This document shows, piece after piece, positions 5,711-21,332 of a stretch of 64,000 nt of DNA (positions are counted from its first letter, which is position 1; each line of letters opens with the position of its first letter). This stretch comes from Alphaproteobacteria bacterium. GTDB lineage: Bacteria > Pseudomonadota > Alphaproteobacteria > Geminicoccales > Geminicoccaceae. Below the pieces are notes generated by a model. The model searched no databases. It saw only the letters and a program-made list of their open reading frames with translations, and had not been told where the DNA came from. Both the position numbers and the translations under genes were made by a program. Location of the stretch: assembly GCA_026982705.1 (NCBI GenBank), contig JALSGP010000019.1, forward strand, positions 1 through 64,000, written 5' to 3'.

Positions 5711-5748
5711 GCGGGCGCCCGGCTCGATCGGGCGCCCGCGCGGCTTTT
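5711..5748 (+). terminator. Rho-independent terminator after tolC
   Basis: An 11-bp perfect stem, GCGGGCGCCCG at 5711-5721 and its complement at 5729-5739, closes a 7-base loop. It is followed within five bases by TTTT at 5745-5748. It lies 28 bases after the tolC stop. The T-run overlaps the left half of the CtrA-type box that begins at 5747, so terminator and next promoter are fused. Confidence 0.8.
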
Positions 5749-5778
5749 AAGGGGTCGTTAACGTTCGCCTGCTAGATC
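5747..5778 (+). promoter_or_regulatory. CtrA-type promoter: perfect TTAA-N7-TTAAC box plus -10 octamer
   Basis: TTAA at 5747-5750, a 7-base spacer, then TTAAC at 5758-5762 is a perfect full CtrA recognition sequence. Nine bases after the second TTAA comes GCTAGATC at 5771-5778, an exact match to the Caulobacter housekeeping -10 consensus GCTANAWC. The box therefore sits over the -35 position, the usual place for CtrA activation. Transcription would start near 5785, about 34 bases before the ATG at 5819. The same geometry recurs at 12584, 13203, 24824 (minus) and 29622 (minus). Confidence 0.75.
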
Positions 5779-10980: not shown

Positions 10981-12015
10981 GTGGCGGCGCGGGATGGTCC
11001 GGGACGCGGCCGATCGCCGCGGCTGCCCCTCCTCGTCCTCGCCGGTCTCGCCGTGGGTCTGCTGTTGGGCCTCGCCGCCGCCCGCTTCCTGCTGCCGCCG
11101 GCGCGTCTCGCCTATCGTGATCTGCCGCGGGTGGAGGCCCCACTGCCCGGGGCCGGGGTGGTGCCGCGGGCGGTGGCGGAGACGGCGGCCGCGGGCCCAC
11201 CGCCGCTGGCGGGCGAACGGCCACCCGATCCCGCGGCGCCGCCCCTCGATCCCGAGGACGCCCTGGCGGAGCCGGGACCGTGGGGACTGGTCCCGCGCAT
11301 CGGGCCCGACGGCCGTCGGCCCTTCGACGTCTACCGCCGGCGGGACGGCACGATGGCCGAGGGACCGCGTCTCGCGCTGGTGATTCGCGGCCTCGGTCTC
11401 GACCGCGACGCGACCCTCGCCGCCGCCCGCCTCCCCGCCCCGGTGGCCCTCTCCTTTTCCCCCTATGCGCCGGCGCTGGCGGCTTGGCTGCGCCACGCCC
11501 GCGGGCTCGGCCACGAGGTGCTGGTGGAGGTGCCGTTGAGGGCGGCCGATCCCGCCACCGATCCCGGCCCCCTCGCCGTCGATCCGGCGGCCGGACCGGG
11601 GGGGCTGCTGCGTCTGCTGGCCCGCGCGCCCGGCACCTTCGCCGTCGTCCTGGGATCGCCCCGGGAGGATCTCGTGCGGCTCGATCCCCTGGTGGCGGAA
11701 CTGGGCCGGCGGGGTCTGGGACTGTTGGAGCCGGATCCGGCGGCGCGCCTCGCCCCCCTCGCCGCACGCCACCGCGTGCCCTACGGGGCGGCGGCGGTGG
11801 TGCTGGATGCCGAGCCCGATCCGGCGGCGGTGGATTTCGCCCTCGGACGGCTCGAGACGGCGGCGGAACGGCGGGGGGCCGCGATCGGCGTCAGCGGACC
11901 GCTGCCGCTGGTGCTGGAACGCCTCGTCCAGTGGCTGCCGGGCCTTGCTCCCCGGGGCTTCGTTCTCGTACCACCGGGGCGGATCCTCGCCGAGGGAGCC
12001 CCGGCGTCCCCATGA
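10981..12015 (+). CDS. Divergent polysaccharide deacetylase family protein (YibQ-like)
   Basis: This 344-residue protein belongs to the divergent polysaccharide deacetylase (YibQ) group. One N-terminal membrane anchor is visible (LLVLAGLAVGLLLGLAAARFLL), then a Pro-rich linker, then the deacetylase-like barrel from about residue 130 (LALVIRGLGLDRD, ALSFSPYAPALAAWL, HEVLVEVPL, PRGFVLVPPGRIL). The usual Asp in the first strand (VIDGLG or VIDDLG in relatives) is Arg here and the metal histidines are not evident, so enzyme activity is doubtful. GTG 10981 follows the ctpA stop by 24 bases. It overlaps rppH as ATGA. Its function is unknown; the context says cell envelope. Confidence 0.85.
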   Translation: MAARDGPGRGRSPRLPLLVLAGLAVGLLLGLAAARFLLPPARLAYRDLPRVEAPLPGAGVVPRAVAETAAAGPPPLAGERPPDPAAPPLDPEDALAEPGPWGLVPRIGPDGRRPFDVYRRRDGTMAEGPRLALVIRGLGLDRDATLAAARLPAPVALSFSPYAPALAAWLRHARGLGHEVLVEVPLRAADPATDPGPLAVDPAAGPGGLLRLLARAPGTFAVVLGSPREDLVRLDPLVAELGRRGLGLLEPDPAARLAPLAARHRVPYGAAAVVLDAEPDPAAVDFALGRLETAAERRGAAIGVSGPLPLVLERLVQWLPGLAPRGFVLVPPGRILAEGAPASP

Positions 12016-12554
12016 GCTGCAAGATCTGCGAGAGGCCGCCCGAGGACTATCGTCCCTGCGTGGGCCTGATGGTGCTCGACCCCGCGGGTCGCATCCTGGT
12101 CGGCCAGCGTGCCGACGTGCCCTTTCCCGCCTGGCAGATGCCCCAGGGCGGTATCGATCCCGGCGAGACCCCGCAGGCGGCGGCCCTCCGCGAACTGGAG
12201 GAGGAGGTGGGGATCCCGCCGGAGAAGGTGGAGCTCCTGGCCGAGAGCCGGGTCTGGCGCTGCTACGATCTGCCGGCGGAACTGCGGCGGAAGGTGTGGG
12301 GCGGGCGCTACCGCGGCCAGGCCCAGCGCTGGTTCGCCTTCCGCTTCCACGGCGATGCGCGCGACATCCGCCTCGACGGTCATCCCCCCGAATTCCGCGC
12401 CGTCAAATGGGCGCGGCCGGAGGAGCTGCTGCGCACGGTGGTCTCCTTCAAGCGCGACGTCTACGCCAGCGTGCTGGAGGAGTTCCGCTGGCTGTGGGCG
12501 CCGTCCTCCACCACCGGCGCCGCGTCGCCGCCGACACGGACGGGGCGATCGTGA
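12012..12554 (+). CDS. rppH: RNA pyrophosphohydrolase, Nudix family
   Basis: This enzyme removes pyrophosphate from the 5' end of mRNAs and so triggers RNase E decay. It has 180 residues. The Nudix box is complete (GGIDPGETPQAAALRELEEE followed by VGI). Upstream VGLMVLDPAGRILVGQR and AWQMPQGG, and downstream RGQAQRWFAFRF and VKWARPEELL, are typical of RppH. A short Cys-rich N-terminus (MSCKICERPPEDYRPC) is an addition of unknown meaning. ATG 12012 overlaps the deacetylase stop. It is the last gene of the gpmI operon; the CtrA-type promoter of the next unit begins 30 bases later. Confidence 0.95.
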   Translation: MSCKICERPPEDYRPCVGLMVLDPAGRILVGQRADVPFPAWQMPQGGIDPGETPQAAALRELEEEVGIPPEKVELLAESRVWRCYDLPAELRRKVWGGRYRGQAQRWFAFRFHGDARDIRLDGHPPEFRAVKWARPEELLRTVVSFKRDVYASVLEEFRWLWAPSSTTGAASPPTRTGRS

Positions 12555-12583
12555 CGTTCCGTCGCAGCGGGCCGGGCCCACCG

Positions 12584-12615
12584 TTAACCGGTCGGTAAGG
12601 GGGCGTGCGCATGAT
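12584..12615 (+). promoter_or_regulatory. Candidate CtrA-type promoter of the first PAS gene
   Basis: TTAA at 12584-12587, a 7-base spacer and GTAA at 12595-12598 form a CtrA box with one changed base in the second half-site. Nine bases later CGCATGAT occupies the -10 position; this octamer is weak. Transcription would start near 12622, 27 bases before the ATG at 12649. The left part, TTAACCGGTCG, resembles TTAACCGATCG at the next gene's box. Confidence 0.5.
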
Positions 12616-12648
12616 CCCGCATGAAGCCATCAGCGGGGAGATGTGCCG

Positions 12649-13206
12649 ATGGGCGTCGCGGTCGCGATCGGTGCTGCGCTGGACCTGGGTGGACGCGAAC
12701 GCCGCCTCGGGCCCGACGATCTGGTGGTCAGCAAGACCGATTCGAAGGGGATCATCCGCTACGTCAATTCCACCTTCTGCCGGATCTCCGGTTTCGCCGA
12801 ACACGAGCTGCTGGGACGTCCGCACAACGTCGTCCGCCATCCCTTCATGCCGGCCGTGATCTTCCGCGGCATGTGGCGGTCTTTGAAGGCACGCGAGGAG
12901 GTGTTCGTCTATGTGGTCAACCGCTGCAAGAACGGGGACCATTACTGGGTCCTCGCCCATGTCACCCCGACCATCGCGCCCGGCGGCGAGATCGTCGGCC
13001 ATCACTCCACGCGGCGGGCACCTCCCGGTGGCGTTCCGCGCGAGGTGATCGAGCTCTATCGGGAGCTGTCGAGCCTCGAAGGAGAGGCCCCGTCGCGCCG
13101 GGCGGGCATGGAACGGGCGGCGCCGAGGCTCGAGACGGCCCTCGCCCCGTGGAACGGCGACCTGTCCGCGTGGACCATGACCCTGGCCGGCGGCACCCCG
13201 CGTTAA
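12649..13206 (+). CDS. Stand-alone PAS-domain protein, aerotaxis-receptor type
   Basis: This 185-residue soluble protein carries one PAS domain at about residues 27-120. The domain reads like the sensor of the Aer receptor: SKTDSKGIIRYVNSTFCRIS, then HNVVRHPFMPAVIFRGMW, then KNGDHYWVLAHVTP. Aer binds FAD through such a domain, but whether this one does cannot be seen. The C-terminal 60 residues are a helical tail (PREVIELYRELSSLEGE) and there is no transmembrane or signalling domain. ATG 12649 is preferred to GTG 12643 because GGGGAG at 12635-12640 is 8 bases before it. A CtrA-type promoter precedes it, and a second PAS gene and a chemotaxis signalling gene follow. Confidence 0.9.
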   Translation: MGVAVAIGAALDLGGRERRLGPDDLVVSKTDSKGIIRYVNSTFCRISGFAEHELLGRPHNVVRHPFMPAVIFRGMWRSLKAREEVFVYVVNRCKNGDHYWVLAHVTPTIAPGGEIVGHHSTRRAPPGGVPREVIELYRELSSLEGEAPSRRAGMERAAPRLETALAPWNGDLSAWTMTLAGGTPR

Positions 13207-13234
13207 CCGATCGTTGGGAGACGGCTGCTAGGGT
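13203..13234 (+). promoter_or_regulatory. Candidate CtrA-type promoter of the second PAS gene
   Basis: TTAA at 13203-13206, which includes the TAA stop of the first PAS gene, a 7-base spacer, then TTGG at 13214-13217 gives one good and one poor half-site. Nine bases on, GCTAGGGT at 13227-13234 matches the -10 octamer GCTANAWC in five of seven fixed positions. The spacing is identical to that of the perfect site at 5747. Transcription would start near 13241, about 20 bases before ATG 13262. Confidence 0.5.
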
Positions 13235-13261
13235 CGGCATGGTCGGAGCGCGGAGGTGGCG

Positions 13262-13774
13262 ATGACGACGCGCGATGATCAAGGGGAGGCCGCGGGCGGG
13301 CTTCGGCCGGGGACCGTGACGGTCCTCAAGACCGACGCGCGGGGACGGATCACCTATGTGGACGATGTCTTCCCGCGGGTGACGGGTCGCCCCGCGGCGG
13401 CGCTGCTGGGGGAAGCGCTCGCCGCCGTCTGGCACGAGCGTATCCCGCGGGTGCTCGCCGATCGCGTCCGCGAGGCCGTGCGCGCCGGCGAGGAGGTCTT
13501 CGTCCACCTCCCCCTGCGCCGGCGCGGAGGCGAGGCGTGCTGGATCTTCCTGGATCTCACGCCGACCCTGAACGAAGGCGGTGAGCTGGTCTCCTGCTTC
13601 GCGGTCCACCGTGCCGCGTCGCCGAGGGCGGTGGCGCGCCTCGCACCCCTCTACGACGAGCTGTGCGATCTTGAGCGGACCGGATCGGAGACGGAGGCCG
13701 CCCGGCGACTCGCCGCGGAAGTGGGGAGCTCGCCGGAATCGCTCAGTGCCTACATGTTCGCTCTGAGGGAGTGA
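13262..13774 (+). CDS. Second stand-alone PAS-domain protein
   Basis: This 170-residue protein is a paralogue of the preceding gene. The PAS core is at about residues 20-115 ([76 protein letters not shown]). A helical tail of about 50 residues follows and ends in [14 protein letters not shown]. The Aer-type VVRHP motif is replaced by AVWHERIP, so ligand binding may differ from the first paralogue. ATG 13262 has GGAGG 6 bases upstream. It lies 7 bases before the methyl-accepting protein gene, so the two are probably co-transcribed. Confidence 0.88.
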
Positions 13775-13781
13775 GCCGGTC

Positions 13782-15098
13782 ATGAGGGAAGCCTTTCGGC
13801 GCGGGACGGTGGCGCTGATGTCGCGGCTCCCGACACTCGAGGCGCTGGTGGTGGTGACGGCGGTGGTGCTGGTGGCCACCGTCGCCGGCACGGTGTGGCC
13901 GGCCGCGGTGATCTCCCGGATCGCCGTGGTCGCCGCGGGTCTCGCCTTCCTCCTCGCGATCCACCTCGCGCTCGGGGTGGGCCGGATCCTGCGGGTGGCC
14001 GCCGCCATCCGCCGCGGAGACACGGAGGCGCGGGTGGTGGCGCTCGGTCACGGCGGCCGTCTCGGCCGTCTCGCCGACGAGTTCAACGGTGCGGTGGACC
14101 AGTTCGAGCTCGTCCTCCGCGACATCTGTCTCAGCCTCGATGCGCTGGTGCGTGGCCGGTCGTGGCGGCGGGCGCTGACCGACGGCGTTCACGGCCTGCT
14201 CCGGTCGTGGGGGGAATGGGCCAACTACCTGCTCCAGCAGGCCGACGAACGGCGCCGCCGCTTCGCCCGCGTGACGGACGACTTCGAACGGGACGTGGCC
14301 CGCAGTGTCGAGACCCTGCGGCGCAAGGCCGAGGAGCTGCGCGAGATGGCGACGCGGGTCACGGCGTCGAGCCGCGAGACGGCGCAGGATGTCCAGTCGA
14401 CGGCGGCCGCGGTCGCCGAACTGGGGGCCTCCGTGGAGGAGATCGCCCGCGCATCCGCCCGGGGGGCCGAGGCGGCCACCGCCTGCATGGGCGACACCGA
14501 TCGCGCCAACGAGACGGCACGGTCCTGTCGCGAGACGGCCGGTCGCATCGCCGACATCGTCGAGACCATCCGCGGTTTCGCCGAGGAGACCAATCTGCTG
14601 GCGCTCAACGCCACCATCGAGGCGGCGCGGGCCGGCGAGGCCGGCCGCGGCTTCGCGGTGGTGGCCCGCGAGATCAAGTCGCTGGCCGAGCGCAGTCGCG
14701 AGGCCAGCGAGGAGATCGGCCGCCATCTCGACGAGGTGCGGCGGGCGGTGGAGCAGGTGGACGAGATCGTCCGTCTGCTTTCCGACCGCATGCGCGGTGT
14801 CGAGGAGAGCGCCAGCGCCACCAGTGCGGCGGTGGAGGAACAGACCGCGACGGTACGCGAACTCGGAGAGATCGCCCAGCGGGTGGCCGAGGCGGTGCAG
14901 CAGGTGGCGATCCGTCTCGGCGACGGCGGCGAGGGTGGCGAGACGGGTGTCCAGCGGCTCGTGGAAACGGTGGCGGAACAGGTGGCCGCCCTGGAACGGT
15001 CGTGTCACGGATTCCTGACGGCGGCCCGACGCGAGATCGGTCGAAGCGGAGACGACGGGACCGCCGTCGGAGAGGACGCCACGGCGACGGCGGCGTGA
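13782..15098 (+). CDS. Methyl-accepting chemotaxis protein without periplasmic sensor domain
   Basis: This 438-residue membrane signalling protein would control the CheA kinase. Two closely spaced hydrophobic segments ([21 protein letters not shown] and [20 protein letters not shown], about residues 20-65) leave almost no periplasmic loop. A HAMP-like segment ([19 protein letters not shown]) follows. The cytoplasmic coiled coil contains the conserved signalling hairpin [19 protein letters not shown] with [18 protein letters not shown]. No sensor domain is present, so the two PAS proteins encoded just upstream are the obvious candidates for input. It is the last gene before a 1.2-kb desert. 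Confidence 0.95.
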
Positions 15099-16272
15099 GT
15101 GGCCGACCGGATGGATGGAAGACCGGGGGCCGGAAGGGCCGGGACGGCCTCCGGCGGCCGGACCGGGATCCTCCCCGACGGGGGGATGCGAGCCCGGGGG
15201 TCGGGAACGGACCGAAAGCGGATCGCGGGCGAAGGTGTCCGGGATCGGCCGGGACCATGCCGGCGCCGCGAGGGTCCCGCGCGGGTCGCGCCGGAAGGGT
15301 GGGGCTGCCGGGCGGGCCTTTCCGGTCCGTCCGCTCCCCCACGCCCGGATGGATGAGCGGTGCCGGCGCCCGCGTCCGGGGGTGCCGCCGCCGACGGGGC
15401 GCTGCCGGGCACGGTGGGGACCCGCTCCGGCCCATCCGGCCAGCCGTGTCGGCGCGGGATACCCGGAAAGGATGGGGGCGCCGCCGCGCCGGGTCCGGAG
15501 TCGGCGTGGCGGACGGTCGCGGCCGTGACGGGAAGTACCTTGGCACCGTTCCCGGCGCCGGCCGGGAAAGGGGCCGGGGCCCGGACCATCCGGCCCGACG
15601 GTCCCTGGGAACGGTGGCGGTGGGCGCCCCTCGTCCCGGAGCGTTTCGGCGCGATGGGGGCGGCGGGCACGGCGCGATCGGGGAGCCATGGCTCCGCGCC
15701 TCCTTCCGATGTCGGGGCCGGCCCCGGCCGCGTCCCCACCGGTCGTCCCGGCGGAGGAGTCGCCGGGGGACGGGCGTGGACGGCGCCGGACGCGCCCGGA
15801 TCACGGGCGGGACCACGCCCGCGGTCCCCACGGATCGTCCGTGGACCGCCGCCGGTTCCGGGGCGGAGACATGGTCCGGTCCACCCGGAAACCTGGCCCC
15901 CGGGTGCCGCGGGGCCGATCCGATGGGGAAGACGCCGCCCGTTCCCGGGGCCGGCGCCCGCAGCCGCCGCCCGGGTGCCGTGTGGTGGTCCGCCGGCACC
16001 GGGTCGTCCCGCGCGCCGGTGGGGGAACGCGGCAGGGTGCGGTGCGTGCCCACGGCCGGTGGTCGCTCTTCCCCGGACCGAGGCTCCGCCTAAATCAGGG
16101 ACACGGCGGTGGCTGGCGTGTGCGTCCGGCCGCGCAACGTGCACCTGGGCCAAGTCGTCCCCGAGGGAGCTGTCCCTGTCGTGGCCGTGGTCACGGCAAA
16201 CGGCGCCCACCTGCCGAGCAGGTCCCAGGGACGGGAGTTCCGGCCGACGGCACGCCGGCGCCGCCGTGCCCC
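15099..16272. other. Gene desert, TA-poor, about 1.2 kb
   Basis: I see no supportable gene here. Several long frames are open at once on both strands, including part of a 1072-codon leftward frame, but their translations are Arg/Pro/Gly-rich shadows without family motifs. By hand count there are three TA dinucleotides in 1174 bases (near 15460, 15536 and 16091). The last belongs to a promoter-like octamer, CCTAAATC. Two small hairpins lie near the right end: ACCTGC / GCAGGT at 16209-16223 and GGCACG / CGTGCC at 16249-16270, the latter just past the 3' end of the leftward cupin gene. Confidence 0.7.
16069..16096 (+). promoter_or_regulatory. Orphan promoter-like element inside the desert
   Basis: CCTAAATC at 16089-16096 matches the -10 octamer GCTANAWC in all but the first base. 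It lies 13 bases after a poor -35 (TTCCCCG at 16069-16075). No gene follows on the + strand. A transcript starting near 16103 would run through two hairpins and antisense into the cupin gene. The evidence is a single motif, so confidence is low. Confidence 0.25.
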
Positions 16273-16635
16273 TCACACCCGCCCGTAGTCGTCCTCGCGC
16301 CGTTCGATGTCGTCCTCGTCGAGGTGCGCGCCGGTCTGCACCTCGACGAACTCCAGCGGCCCGTCGCCGGGATTGGCGACACGGTGCCAGCAGCCGAGCG
16401 GGATCACCACGTGCTCGCCGGGACCGAGCTCGATGGTCTCGCCGTCGCGCTCCACCCGCGCCCGTCCCCGCACCACCAGCCAGAACTCGCGGCGATGGCG
16501 ATGGCGCTGCAGGGAGAGACGCTGGCCGGGCCGCACGCGGATGCGCTTGATGCAACTGTGTTCGGTGACGTCCAGCACCTCCCATTCGCCCCACGGCCGA
16601 ACATCGCGCTCGCCCACGGAAAATCGATTGGCCAT
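16273..16635 (-). CDS. Small cupin protein, mannose-6-phosphate isomerase type II-like domain
   Basis: This is a 120-residue single-cupin protein resembling the C-terminal isomerase domain of bifunctional mannose-1-phosphate guanylyltransferase / phosphomannose isomerase. Visible features are RPWGEWEVLD, the metal-binding motif HRHRREFWLVVRG, and the second cupin motif GPGEHVVIPLGCWHRVAN. ATG 16635 is chosen because a GTGGGGA ribosome site precedes it and the protein then begins like the family (MANRFSVGERDVRPWG). It is isolated: deserts lie on both sides and no sugar-nucleotide gene is near. It probably binds a metal and a sugar phosphate, but the substrate is not evident. Confidence 0.9.
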   Translation of the reverse strand: MANRFSVGERDVRPWGEWEVLDVTEHSCIKRIRVRPGQRLSLQRHRHRREFWLVVRGRARVERDGETIELGPGEHVVIPLGCWHRVANPGDGPLEFVEVQTGAHLDEDDIERREDDYGRV

Positions 16636-17576
16636 CGTTCCCCACCTTGCCATGCGACGGCCATCCTTTCCCATTTCCCGCCCGCGGGCTCAAGAGGGGC
16701 GTGGAGCGGACCGCCGGCTGCGCCGCGATGGCCATGAGCCACGGAGACCGCCCTCTCCGGGCCCGTCGGCGGTCGGGGTCGTGCGGCGGCCGCGGTCCGA
16801 GGGCGGAATGGCGGTCGGGCGTCGGGACATCCGCGGGAAGCCCTCGCCGGACGGGCGATCCCGGTGGGCCCGGGAGCGGGATCGGATCGGGGACGGGGCG
16901 TGGCTCGGAAGGTGCGGACCGGTGTCCGGGTGGGGGGAGAGCGGAGCGCGCGGGACTGCCCCGGGCATGTCCGGAGAGGGAACGGAGACATGCCGGCTTC
17001 GCGAAGCTGCGGCCCCGATCGGCCGCACGCGGCGACGGCATCCGGACCGCGCGGGACGGCCGGAGCCCGTGCCGGCTGCACCGGCCCTCTCGCGGTTCCC
17101 TCTTCCCTCCCCCTCGGGGACGTGTCGACCGTGGCATCCCCGGGAAAGACGGCGCGCGGGCCCCTCCACGCGGATCGCCCACCTCGACCCGCGCCCTTCT
17201 CCGCCACGCCTTCCCGCGGGGGTGCCGGGATCGTCCGGATGCTCCCGGAAGCGTGGTGCTTCGTCCGGGGCCGGCCTCGCGGCCGGGAGGGACGGCGATC
17301 GCGCGGTTCGGGGGCGGGGCGGGTGTCGGTTCGTCATGTCCGATCCCGGTGGGGAGTGCGGGGAGCCCTCGCGGGTCGGGGATCCGCCGGTGAAGCCGGA
17401 CGGGGTCGTGGGCCCGGTGCGGTTCCGGCCACGGGTCGGACGGGCACGGAGCTTGTCGGACGGGTCCCGGGGCATCCGACCGCCCGGGAGGACCGTCGTT
17501 CCGTTCGAGGCCCCCGCGCCGCGCCCCTCCCGACGGGGGCTCTGGTCTCGGATCCGGGATCGGGCGCGCGCCGACG

Positions 17577-17618
17577 CCGGGACGTCGCCCGGGGCCCGGG
17601 GCCCGGGCGACGTCCCGG
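17577..17618. repeat. Perfect inverted repeat, 17-bp arms with 8-base centre
   Basis: The left arm at 17577-17593 (CCGGGACGTCGCCCGGG) is the exact reverse complement of 17602-17618. The 8-base centre GCCCGGGG itself holds a CCCGGG palindrome. It lies near the middle of the 3-kb desert with no T-run on either side, so a simple terminator is unlikely. It could be a protein-binding palindrome, a cruciform, or a chance product of extreme G+C, though 17 perfect pairs are many for chance. Confidence 0.85.
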
Positions 17619-19610
17619 GCGATGTGGGGCGGACGCGCGCGATCGGAAGGCGGCGCGGGCGGCCCGTGGGCGCCTGTGCCCTCGAGGGACCCTTCGCCGG
17701 GGTGCGATGGCGCCCTGCGGGAAGGGGGGCCGCATCGGCCGGGGCGGACGGACCGCGGGTGTCCCGTCGCGGCTGTGCGGGGGCCGCGGCTCCCGGCGCG
17801 GGAGCCGGGGACCGCGAGGCGCGGTGAGGGGAGTGTCCGACGAGCGGAGGGAAGCGCGCGATCGCCGGAGGGATCGCGACGGTCGGTGAACGCCCGGGTG
17901 GGAGGGCGACGGGGATGGGAGGCGGGACCCGGAGCCGCTGGCGGTCGCGGTCCTCGACTCCGGGGCCCTGGGAGCGCCCCCGCGTTCGATCCGGGGGCGT
18001 CGCCCCGCCGTCGCCTTCGACGGTGCCCGGCTCGGGCATCCCGGATGTCCCGGACGCGGCGTCTCCGGCCGGGCCGGTGCGACCCGTCGCGCCCGGGCCG
18101 GCCTCGTGCGTCCCGCCCGCGCAGGCGCGCGGCCGGCCTCCCGCCTCGGACCCGGCGGGCGGGCCGATGCCGATCCGCGTCCTCCGCCGCCGTCGCACCC
18201 GTCGGGTCGCGTGCCGTCGGCACGAGTCCCTCTTCGCCGCCATCGCACGGCGCTTCCGGGTTCGTTCCGTCGGCCGGGTGCCCATCGATCCCGCCCGCGA
18301 CCTCGCCGCCCCGTCATTCCGGGGGCGGGACCGGCACCGCACGGGCCGGCCCTGCCCGCATGCCGCGGATTCCGGCCCCGAAGCCCCGCGAGACAGGGCC
18401 GGAGGGACGCGGGGCGGGTGGCACCGTACGTTCCATTCCCGCACCCGGAGCCGGGGAGGTCGCGACCTCCCTCCCCCTCGCCCGAGGTCGCGATGGGACC
18501 GGCAGGGACGAGGCGTCGACGCGCCGCGTCCGGGAGCACGGTGGCGGCGCGGCAGGGACGGACCGGGATCGTCCCGGGGCGGAGCGCCGCTACCACGGCG
18601 GGCGGGGTCTCGGGCCGCCCGATCCCCCGCGGTGGCGAAGCCCCGGACCCGGGGCTCACCGGCAGGCTCGCCCCGTGCCGGGATCGGTGCGGTGGGCCCG
18701 ACGGTGGATCGCGGAGGACCGCGCGCGGCCCCGCCGTGCGTCGAACGGGAGGATCCGACGGGAGGCCCCCTGGGCGATCCCGTCCGGCCCACGGTCCGCG
18801 TCGCAAGGAGATCGCCCCGCCGGGCCGCCCGTGGCGGGGCCGCGGAGCGGGACCGTCTCCGCGGAGGGTGGCCCGTCCATGCCGCAGGGAAGGGGCACGG
18901 CGCCGGCGCCGTGGTTCCGCGCCACGGCCCGCGCGCCCTCCGATCTCCGCGAAGACCGACCCGCCGGGCCGGCTTCCCCGTCTCCCACGTTCCGCGAGTG
19001 CCCCCCGCCCGGGGCGACGGAACCGGGGGAACGATCCCGGCCCTCGGCCGCCGGCTCCTCCGGTCGCTTCCGGAGGTGGCGGTCCCGACGGTGCGACGGT
19101 GTGGTCGGCGGCAATCCCCGTGGCGCCACCGACACCGTCGGGGCCGCGGGAAGCCCGCCGGCACCACGGGCCGGAATCCGTCCCGCCGTGCGGGGCCCGA
19201 CCGATCGACCCCGCCGTGGCCGGACCCCCCGCAGCGGATCCGCCGCCCCGTCCACACCGGGGGCGCCGGAGAACCGTGAGGTGCCGAGGCCGGCCGGAGC
19301 CCGCCGGAAGCCGCGACCCGATGGGCGCGTCATGTCGCGCTCCTTCCCGCGCCCGGGCGATGGGGCCCGTGGGCACACGGTTTCCTGCCATGGCCGCACG
19401 GGAAGCGATGCCGCCGCGGATGGTGATGGCCGGAGGCGGGAGAACCTCCTCCTCCCGCCGATGAGGCGTTCGCCGCAACGCGACCCTGCGGCGTGGAGAC
19501 AACGGATCACAGGGGCGCGGGAGGCGGGTGGCCCGCGCCGGGACGGCGCGAGACGTCGCGATCGCCCCGCCAGGGGTGGAAGATCCCGCCACGCCCGCAT
19601 CGCCACGGAA

Positions 19611-19631
19611 CGCGCCGGAGGCGTCGGCGCG
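19611..19631 (-). terminator. Hairpin just after flhG, possible terminator of the flagellar operon
   Basis: CGCGCCG at 19611-19617 pairs with CGGCGCG at 19625-19631 around a 7-base loop. It begins about ten bases past the flhG stop on the minus strand. There is no T-run, so it may be a weak or Rho-aided end. Confidence 0.35.
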
Positions 19632-19641
19632 CAGGTGCGGT

Positions 19642-20406
19642 CTAGCGCGACGGGCCGGGCGGCGGTATTGGAGCCGGTTCCAGCAGGGTCGCCGCCAGCC
19701 GCTCGATGTCCTCGGCCACCACGCTCCGGGGATGACGGGCGAGAAAGGGCATCTGCACGCGGATGGCATCCGCCACCCGCGGGTCGCGTCGCACCACGCC
19801 GAGCAGGCGCGGTTCCAGTCCCAGGAAGCGCCGGCAGGCGCGGGCCAGCGCCCGGTAGGTCTCGCGTCCACCTTCGCGATCGTCGGCGAAATTGACCACC
19901 ACGCCCACCGGACGGGCGGGGTCGCAGACGACCTTGACGAAGGCATAGGCATCGGTGAGGGCGGTGGGCTCGTCGGTGGTGACCACCACCACCTCGTCGG
20001 CGGCGCGGGCGAGGATGCGGCAGGGCGGCTCGATGCCGGCGGCGAGATCCAGGAGTACCAGATCGTAGGCGGCGGCGAGTTCACGCAGGCGGCCGCCGAG
20101 GGCGGCGACCCGGGCCGGCGGCAGACCGGCGAGGAGACCGGACCCGGACCGCCCCACCACCAGATCGAGTCCGGTGGACGGGTGATGGATCACCGCCTCG
20201 GCCAGATCGATGCGGCCGTGCAGCACCTGAGCGAGATCGACGGCGGCGGCGATGCCGAGCTGGACGTCGAGATTGGCGAGGCCGAGGTCCCCGTCGAAGA
20301 CCAGACAGCGTCGTCCCCGCCGGACGAGGGCGTGGGCGAGGGTGGCGGAGAGGAAGGTCTTGCCCACGCCACCCTTGCCCGAAGCGATGGCCACCATGCG
20401 ACTCAT
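19642..20406 (-). CDS. flhG: Flagellar number regulator, MinD/ParA-type ATPase
   Basis: FlhG (FleN) is an ATPase that limits flagellar number by acting on FlhF and assembly factors. It has 254 residues. The deviant Walker A KGGVGKT is in VAIASGKGGVGKTFLSATLA near the N-terminus, followed by DGDLGLANLDVQLG, the switch region LLDLAAGIEPP and VTTDEPTALTDAYA. All are typical of FlhG. The usual N-terminal DQA-type helix that stimulates FlhF is not evident. Its ATG overlaps the flhF stop as ATGA. It is the last gene of the flagellar operon. Confidence 0.94.
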   Translation of the reverse strand: MSRMVAIASGKGGVGKTFLSATLAHALVRRGRRCLVFDGDLGLANLDVQLGIAAAVDLAQVLHGRIDLAEAVIHHPSTGLDLVVGRSGSGLLAGLPPARVAALGGRLRELAAAYDLVLLDLAAGIEPPCRILARAADEVVVVTTDEPTALTDAYAFVKVVCDPARPVGVVVNFADDREGGRETYRALARACRRFLGLEPRLLGVVRRDPRVADAIRVQMPFLARHPRSVVAEDIERLAATLLEPAPIPPPGPSR

Positions 20407-21332
20407 GCGGCAGTCTCCACGGTCTCGGGACGGGCGAGCTGGATCAGGAGGCGCGCCAGGGCGGCCGGTGTGAGGGACCGCAGCGTACGGGCGAGACGCG
20501 GACCGGTGGTCACCCCGGCGAGGGCCGGGCCCGCGGCCAGCAGGCCCACCACGCCGCCGAGCCGCCGCGCCGTGTCCAGGCGGGTGATCACCGCCCGCTC
20601 ACAGCCGAGGGCGCGGAAGTTGGCGGCGATCTCGAAGGCGTCGAGGGCGTCGTGGAGGGCGGGGAGGACCAGGACCGGCGCCAGTCCCAGCGCGTCCGCC
20701 CGTTCCACCAGCCGGGCGAGGGCCGCACCGTCGAAGGGATCGATGCCCGCCGTATCCAGCAGCACCAGCTCCGCCGGTGCCGAGGCCAGGGCATCGGGTT
20801 CCGCGAGTTCGAGGCCGAGCGGCGCCAGCAGCGCCTCGGTGCGGGCGCGGGTCCCGGCCCGCTCGCCGTCCAGCGTCGCCACACACACGCTGCGACCCTC
20901 GATCCGGGCGGCGGCGGCGAGGCGGGCGAGCAGGCTGGTCTTGCCGCCCCCGGGCTCGCCCACCAGCGCGAAACGGCCGCGGGTCAGGGCCGCCCGCGTC
21001 GCGAAGCGGCCGAGGCGGGCGAGGGCGTGGGCGAGGGCCGCTTCCGGATCGGCGAGGCCGCAGGCGCTCGCCGCCTCCAGGAGCGTGCGGCGGTGTCCGT
21101 CCAGCAGCCGATGGGCGGCGAGCACCCGCGCGAGGGCGGCCGCCACGTCCGGATCGTCGCCCTCTTCCAGCAGATGTCCGGGCGCGGGCTCGTCGAGGGC
21201 CAGCGCCGCCGTCACCCGCGCTCCCTCCGGCCCCTCCCGCGTGCCGAGGATCACCGCGTCCGGTCCCAGCACCCGCCGCATCTCGGCGAGCGCTTCCTGG
21301 ACGGTGGGGGCCTCGAACACGCGCAGCCGCAT
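20403..21332 (-). CDS. flhF: Flagellar biosynthesis GTPase FlhF (SRP-type)
   Basis: FlhF is an SRP-family GTPase that places the flagellum, usually at the pole. It has 309 residues, on the short side for the family. The start MRLRVFEAPTVQEALAEMRR is the conserved basic domain; the middle is helical; the G domain begins near residue 145 with G1 GEPGGGKTSLLARLA and continues with LLDTAGIDPFD and ITRLDTARRLGG. The G1 loop deviates from the usual GPTGVGKT but keeps GKT. The gene is three bases after flhA and overlaps flhG. With flhG it suggests a polar, number-controlled flagellum. Confidence 0.92.
   Translation of the reverse strand: MRLRVFEAPTVQEALAEMRRVLGPDAVILGTREGPEGARVTAALALDEPAPGHLLEEGDDPDVAAALARVLAAHRLLDGHRRTLLEAASACGLADPEAALAHALARLGRFATRAALTRGRFALVGEPGGGKTSLLARLAAAARIEGRSVCVATLDGERAGTRARTEALLAPLGLELAEPDALASAPAELVLLDTAGIDPFDGAALARLVERADALGLAPVLVLPALHDALDAFEIAANFRALGCERAVITRLDTARRLGGVVGLLAAGPALAGVTTGPRLARTLRSLTPAALARLLIQLARPETVETAA

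Follow-up and report, generated by a model that had tools for sequence, protein, structure and literature searches.

A probable CetA/CetB-type bipartite energy-taxis receptor locus in an alphaproteobacterium, with a second CetB-like PAS gene that lacks the FAD-contact residues

Bipartite receptors are treated as an established class in a 2026 review (PMC13401364), and two of them bear directly on the locus described here. The CetA of C. jejuni contains a two-helix hairpin, and its partner CetB, a peripheral PAS protein, is present at a level that depends on CetA (PMC2628428); a second PAS protein, CetC, is encoded upstream of cetA and can replace CetB (PMC3558505), and CetA/B and CetA/C each complement aerotaxis mutants of E. 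coli (PMC10746189). In M. gryphiswaldense, CetB2 binds FAD, as shown biochemically, and also interacts with CetA2 and brings about a repellent response to oxygen; eight FAD-contact residues of CetB2 were named by Herz et al. (PMC12442639). Our locus, in a 64,000-nt window (the whole stretch of DNA analyzed), consists of two PAS genes, PAS1 and PAS2, followed by an MCP gene. As in C. jejuni CetA/CetB, an Aer-like PAS protein adjoins a hairpin MCP without a periplasmic sensor domain (PMC2628428), and as in CetABC, one CetA-type MCP has two neighboring CetB-type PAS proteins (PMC3558505, PMC10746189). The same parts—FAD-PAS, membrane hairpin, HAMP, and MCP signaling domain—also make up E. coli Aer (PMC9668731; PDB 8dik), where, unlike here, all of them stand in one chain.

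An earlier note on this DNA had proposed a receptor assembled from separate sensor and signaling chains. Homology and gene linkage support that proposal, but as a new idea we rejected it, such receptors having been published as CetA/CetB in C. jejuni and M. gryphiswaldense. Because the split receptor is already known, as are two-PAS versions of it, what the locus adds is limited to PAS2, and it is in PAS2 that it departs from the known kind. The gene order of C. jejuni, with cetB after cetA, is reversed here: PAS1 comes before the MCP gene, and the two are separated by a second, degenerate PAS gene. CetC is a functional near-copy of CetB, 63-64% identical to it (PMC3558505, PMC10746189); PAS2, on the other hand, shares about 32-35% identity with PAS1 and lacks every one of the eight FAD contacts. 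The available text on M. gryphiswaldense CetBA2 describes one CetB per CetA and no degenerate CetB (PMC12442639), and in the accessible portions of the open-access literature on bipartite energy-taxis receptors we found no mention of one. We read the locus as probably coding for a bipartite energy-taxis receptor of the CetA/CetB type, with PAS2 as a CetB paralogue without FAD-contact residues.

The two PAS genes and the adjoining sensorless MCP gene were all found where the earlier note had placed them (Table 1). All three run rightward behind an rppH-like NUDIX gene (12012-12551; 185.6 bits with the NCBIfam RNA pyrophosphohydrolase family, cut-off 116). The gap from PAS1 to PAS2 is 55 nt, and that from PAS2 to the MCP gene is 7 nt. 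The genome (2.66 Mb, 99.66% complete) encodes six MCPs, two strong flagellin matches on contig C42, three COX1-family matches, and four CheW-domain matches on contigs C4 and C5, two of which share one 986-aa frame on C4 that we read as CheA-like. Beyond the MCP gene, positions 15100-16200 and 16700-19500 (about 1.1 and 2.8 kb) are apparently non-coding stretches, long for a genome of 2.66 Mb: GC rises to 0.81, and the three-base periodicity of GC is 0.03-0.17 per 300-base step, compared with 0.26-0.42 in surrounding genes. An Rfam scan of 12000-20500 gave no match, and a tandem-repeat scan of 15090-19650 found none.

Table 1. Features of the PAS1-PAS2-MCP locus, in window coordinates
Feature	Coordinates	Strand	Details
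CtrA-like element TTAACCGGTCGGTAAG	12584-12599	+	65 bp before PAS1
PAS1, CetB-like PAS protein	12649-13206	+	185 aa, ATG 12649; 8/8 published FAD-contact residues
Related, weaker element TTAACCGATCGTTGGG	13203-13218	+	59 bp before PAS2, overlaps PAS1 stop codon
PAS2, divergent CetB-like PAS protein	13262-13774	+	170 aa, ATG 13262; modeled PAS fold and helical tail
CetA-like MCP transducer	13782-15098	+	438 aa, ATG 13782
MCP transmembrane hairpin	13785-14012	+	Hydropathy; modeled helices 2-33 and 38-77
MCP HAMP-like/proximal region	14016-14225	+	Model and family conservation
MCP signaling domain PF00015	14499-14906	+	Pfam match

The MCP carries an MCPsignal domain at residues 240-375 (Pfam, E 4.7e-29) and gave no Pfam match to a sensor domain or to HAMP, the HAMP label coming from the model and from family conservation. 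Hydropathy marks hydrophobic stretches at residues of about 20-36 and 44-66, and an AlphaFold2 model of modest quality (pLDDT 76.5, pTM 0.45) predicts long helices over this region that are joined by a four-residue turn, which leaves almost no periplasmic loop; two membrane helices, hardly any loop, and no sensor domain are what had been described from the sequence. After the hairpin the model has two loop-separated helical segments, which look like two HAMP-like units, and then the signaling hairpin. Among relatives, five CetB-paired CetA-type MCPs (L015, L016, L022, L032, and L036) have a longest frame with its start shortly ahead of the HAMP-like region and hardly any sequence at the position of the membrane hairpin, and may therefore be cytoplasmic.

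A genome scan returned at least 559 loci encoding relatives, of which the best 80 were analyzed; split forms rank at the top partly because the ranking used full-length match. The longest matches run from about residue 5-15 of PAS1 to residue 185 and are with standalone proteins of about 180 aa. Among these best 80, a PAS1-like gene in an open frame under 320 aa was found at 44 loci (L007-L050), and at 40 of these an MCP match follows on the same strand, no more than about 0.8 kb downstream; among the exceptions (L014, L020, L029, and L050), the contig stops 0.9 kb or less from the gene at L020 and L029. At 32 of the 36 loci L051-L086, also among the best 80, PAS and MCP are fused in one open frame, the remainder either running off the available sequence (L055, L073, and L075) or lacking a complete frame (L057). 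Split and fused forms are therefore both common: the fused homologues that the earlier note had thought worth seeking exist, and the linkage of PAS genes to MCP genes on which its proposal hung holds at 40 of 44 loci, though orphan cetB genes exist. Many of the split relatives are titled Alphaproteobacteria, and others carry the titles Planctomycetes, Polyangia, and more.

Those orphans, cetB genes without a neighboring MCP gene (L014 and L146 on the same contig, L050, L152, and L153), would fit a reading in which the PAS genes merely adjoin this MCP gene while their products act with other MCPs or with partners outside taxis. We regard it as highly improbable, given the linkage in 40 of 44 relatives (among the best 80 of at least 559), the overlap of cetB and cetA in the nearest relative (G002), the published CetA-CetB interaction (PMC12442639), and the residues of the MCP itself. 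When this MCP is aligned with 27 linked ones, G79, R84, N102, D106, R113, R129, G138, and N148 are invariant, while the genome's five other MCPs, which align loosely outside the tip, have 5, 3, 5, 2, and 3 of these eight proximal residues; N102 and N148, in a loosely aligned stretch, are absent from all five. Six signaling-tip residues that we checked are, by comparison, common to all five except for one change. At position 114, where E is nearly invariant, this MCP carries D, a point against the CetA/CetB reading. As to the surroundings of orphans in the same family, L152 and L153 precede a glycosyltransferase gene and L146 has DUF72 and formate-THF ligase genes next to it; TTAAC-N6-TTAAC stands upstream of both L146 and L153.

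PAS1 resembles the PAS domain of Aer, as the earlier note had recognized from its VVRHP motif: the motif is present, and the E. coli Aer PAS domain is the best solved relative (8dik, E 3.7e-26). The protein is standalone and presumably soluble, and it aligns with standalone CetB-like proteins, C-terminal tail included. Its residues H59, N60, R63, F72, W76, N91, V105, and R122 are the same eight FAD contacts as in M. gryphiswaldense CetB2 (PMC12442639), to five of which H53, R57, W70, N85, and R115 of E. coli Aer correspond in our reading, so that PAS1 probably binds FAD. PAS2 matches PAS families more weakly than PAS1 (PAS_4, E 6.7e-09), its best solved sequence match again being the Aer PAS domain, at a weak E of 3e-08. 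The alignment of PAS1 and PAS2 is gapless across the PAS core, and at the eight contact columns PAS2 reads L, A, W, A, R, L, L, and H, retaining none. At least seven contacts are kept in 65 of 66 other CetB-like rows, a count in which N or S at position 60 was scored as conserved and the L057 row comes from a truncated contig; the exception, the orphan L139, keeps three. This L139 gene (1835-2359, minus strand) belongs to another family of the same class and is a second CetB-like gene poor in FAD-site residues; no CetA-type match was found near it.

Beyond the contacts, PAS2 keeps 24 of 63 columns that reach at least 85% conservation across 62 canonical rows (L057, L088, L139, and L140 being left out). 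The losses are heaviest in the pocket and neighboring strands: none of seven conserved FAD columns is kept, compared with 24 of 56 non-FAD columns, a modest difference that ignores phylogeny (Fisher two-sided p 0.038). Conserved N-terminal (N-cap) positions are kept at 1/7 in PAS2 and 4/7 in PAS1, and conserved C-tail positions at 3/6 and 5/6; with so few retained in PAS2, loss of an interface is possible. Since PAS2 has none of the eight contacts, the suggestion that the locus holds two alternative redox sensors is unlikely as originally put, and, for the same residue losses, PAS2 is unlikely to be able to replace PAS1 in the manner of CetC.

PAS2 is nonetheless a real, normally coding gene. 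Its 170 codons are uninterrupted, its GC by codon position (0.76/0.54/0.85) is like that of its neighbors, with a third-position value the same as in PAS1, and its codon score is 0.245, next to 0.274 for PAS1, which lies within the reference set; the five other frames across PAS2 score negative. The predicted fold is a PAS core followed by three C-terminal helices, modeled at a pLDDT of 91.8 from an alignment that includes PAS1 and other CetBs and so biases the fold towards theirs, and its best PDB match is 8dik, the Aer PAS domain, with TM-scores of 0.85 by target and 0.65 by query. PAS2 thus combines a position next to a CetA-type gene with a modeled CetB-like fold and helical C-terminal tail. 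In the tree it is an extreme branch, about 10 in length, and the tree does not place it, the branch being long and the support not settled.

These properties bear on two further readings of PAS2. That it is a drifting, functionless duplicate of cetB would account for the extreme branch, for the disappearance of every conserved FAD residue, and for our not finding PAS2 in the three other genomes of the genus examined (completeness 99, 89, and 74%); we think it improbable in view of the open 170-codon frame, the PAS1-like GC3, a codon score positive only in its own frame, the 24 of 56 conserved non-FAD positions still in place, the confident and complete fold model, and the element upstream. The intact modeled fold, normal coding signal, and upstream element of its own would equally suit a genuine second sensor that answers to another cue—a different cofactor or a small molecule—and acts through the same MCP, and losses concentrated in the pocket and neighboring strands are what retuning predicts. 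This reading is somewhat better placed than the relic, but still unlikely: no known pocket signature was recognized in PAS2, and among 31 genomes of the family, which are all those of the order examined, no other gene has PAS2-like losses.

In those 31 genomes, PAS2 apart, every standalone CetB-like gene retains seven or more of the eight FAD residues. G002, the nearest relative (68% identity for PAS1, 61% for the MCP), has no PAS2 separating cetB from cetA, which share a 14-nt overlap, the cetA start codon being our choice; cetB also overlaps cetA in M. gryphiswaldense CetBA2 (PMC12442639). Upstream of cetB, G002 has a related element and what looks by eye to be the tail of the same rppH gene. 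With PAS2 absent between cetB and cetA of G002 and not found in the three other genomes of the genus examined, it was most simply gained between cetB and cetA here, or lost elsewhere. A plasmid search for relatives of PAS2 gave three distant PAS matches of 28-33% identity. CetB-like matches at E <= 1e-12 occur in at least 91 of 385 genomes, many of them PAS domains of larger proteins. By eye, among the matches listed, at least five further genomes contain a pair of standalone CetB-like genes lying within about 2.5 kb, and we accordingly rejected the idea that a two-PAS arrangement is unique. The orders are PAS-PAS-MCP (L138), MCP-PAS-PAS (L137), PAS-MCP-PAS (L141), and PAS-MCP-PAS-MCP (L142 and L143, the latter the same locus as L010); in all these pairs every copy keeps at least seven of the eight FAD residues, and the tree joins the two as sisters.

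The CtrA-type promoters that the earlier note had assigned to these genes fared unevenly: the element before PAS1 (12584-12598) matches TTAA-N7-TTAA at 7/8 positions, but the one before PAS2 (13203) at only 6/8. With at most one mismatch, TTAA-N7-TTAA has three sites in the window, where 0.02 would be expected. The sole perfect site in the window is at 5747-5761, and TTAA itself occurs only six times in 64 kb at 74% GC. TTAACCG stands before both PAS1 (65 bp) and PAS2 (59 bp); of the five other MCP genes, three have it as well, 60, 67, and 82 bp before their likely starts, for which we chose the codons and alternatives are possible. The fuller pattern TTAACCG-N5-TNRG, drawn from some of these sites, has nine occurrences in the genome against three for a reversed control and fits only one of the three other MCP sites. 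A CtrA-family regulator is encoded on contig C46 (376 bits, cut-off 350), and a CtrA-type chemotaxis regulon is plausible from these sequence matches; PAS2 and the MCP gene may have a transcription start of their own. As TTAACCG also lies upstream of the three other MCP genes, a shared regulon explains the PAS1 and PAS2 elements equally well, and we rejected their similarity as proof of a duplication.

By analogy with the published relatives, PAS1, as the CetB of the system, would bind FAD, follow the redox state of respiration, and dock on the HAMP-like region of the hairpin-anchored MCP, its CetA, which would relay the signal to CheA/CheW and the flagella. PAS2, as a CetB paralogue that lost the FAD-contact residues and, as modeled, kept the PAS fold and helical tail, would most likely share or compete for the docking place of PAS1 on CetA, or pair with PAS1, and so tune gain or stoichiometry without itself sensing FAD redox. 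We put forward this tuning role tentatively, and with marginally more reserve its fuller form, in which PAS2 is a dedicated cofactor-free pseudo-sensor subunit that sets receptor gain or stoichiometry by occupying some of the docking sites on CetA or by pairing with PAS1. Bipartite receptors offer a simple setting in which to swap the sensor chain independently of the signaling chain. If the locus does pair one intact with one cofactor-less sensor chain, it would offer a test of how many working sensor subunits are needed per chemoreceptor dimer, and of whether bacteria set receptor gain by means of dead paralogues.
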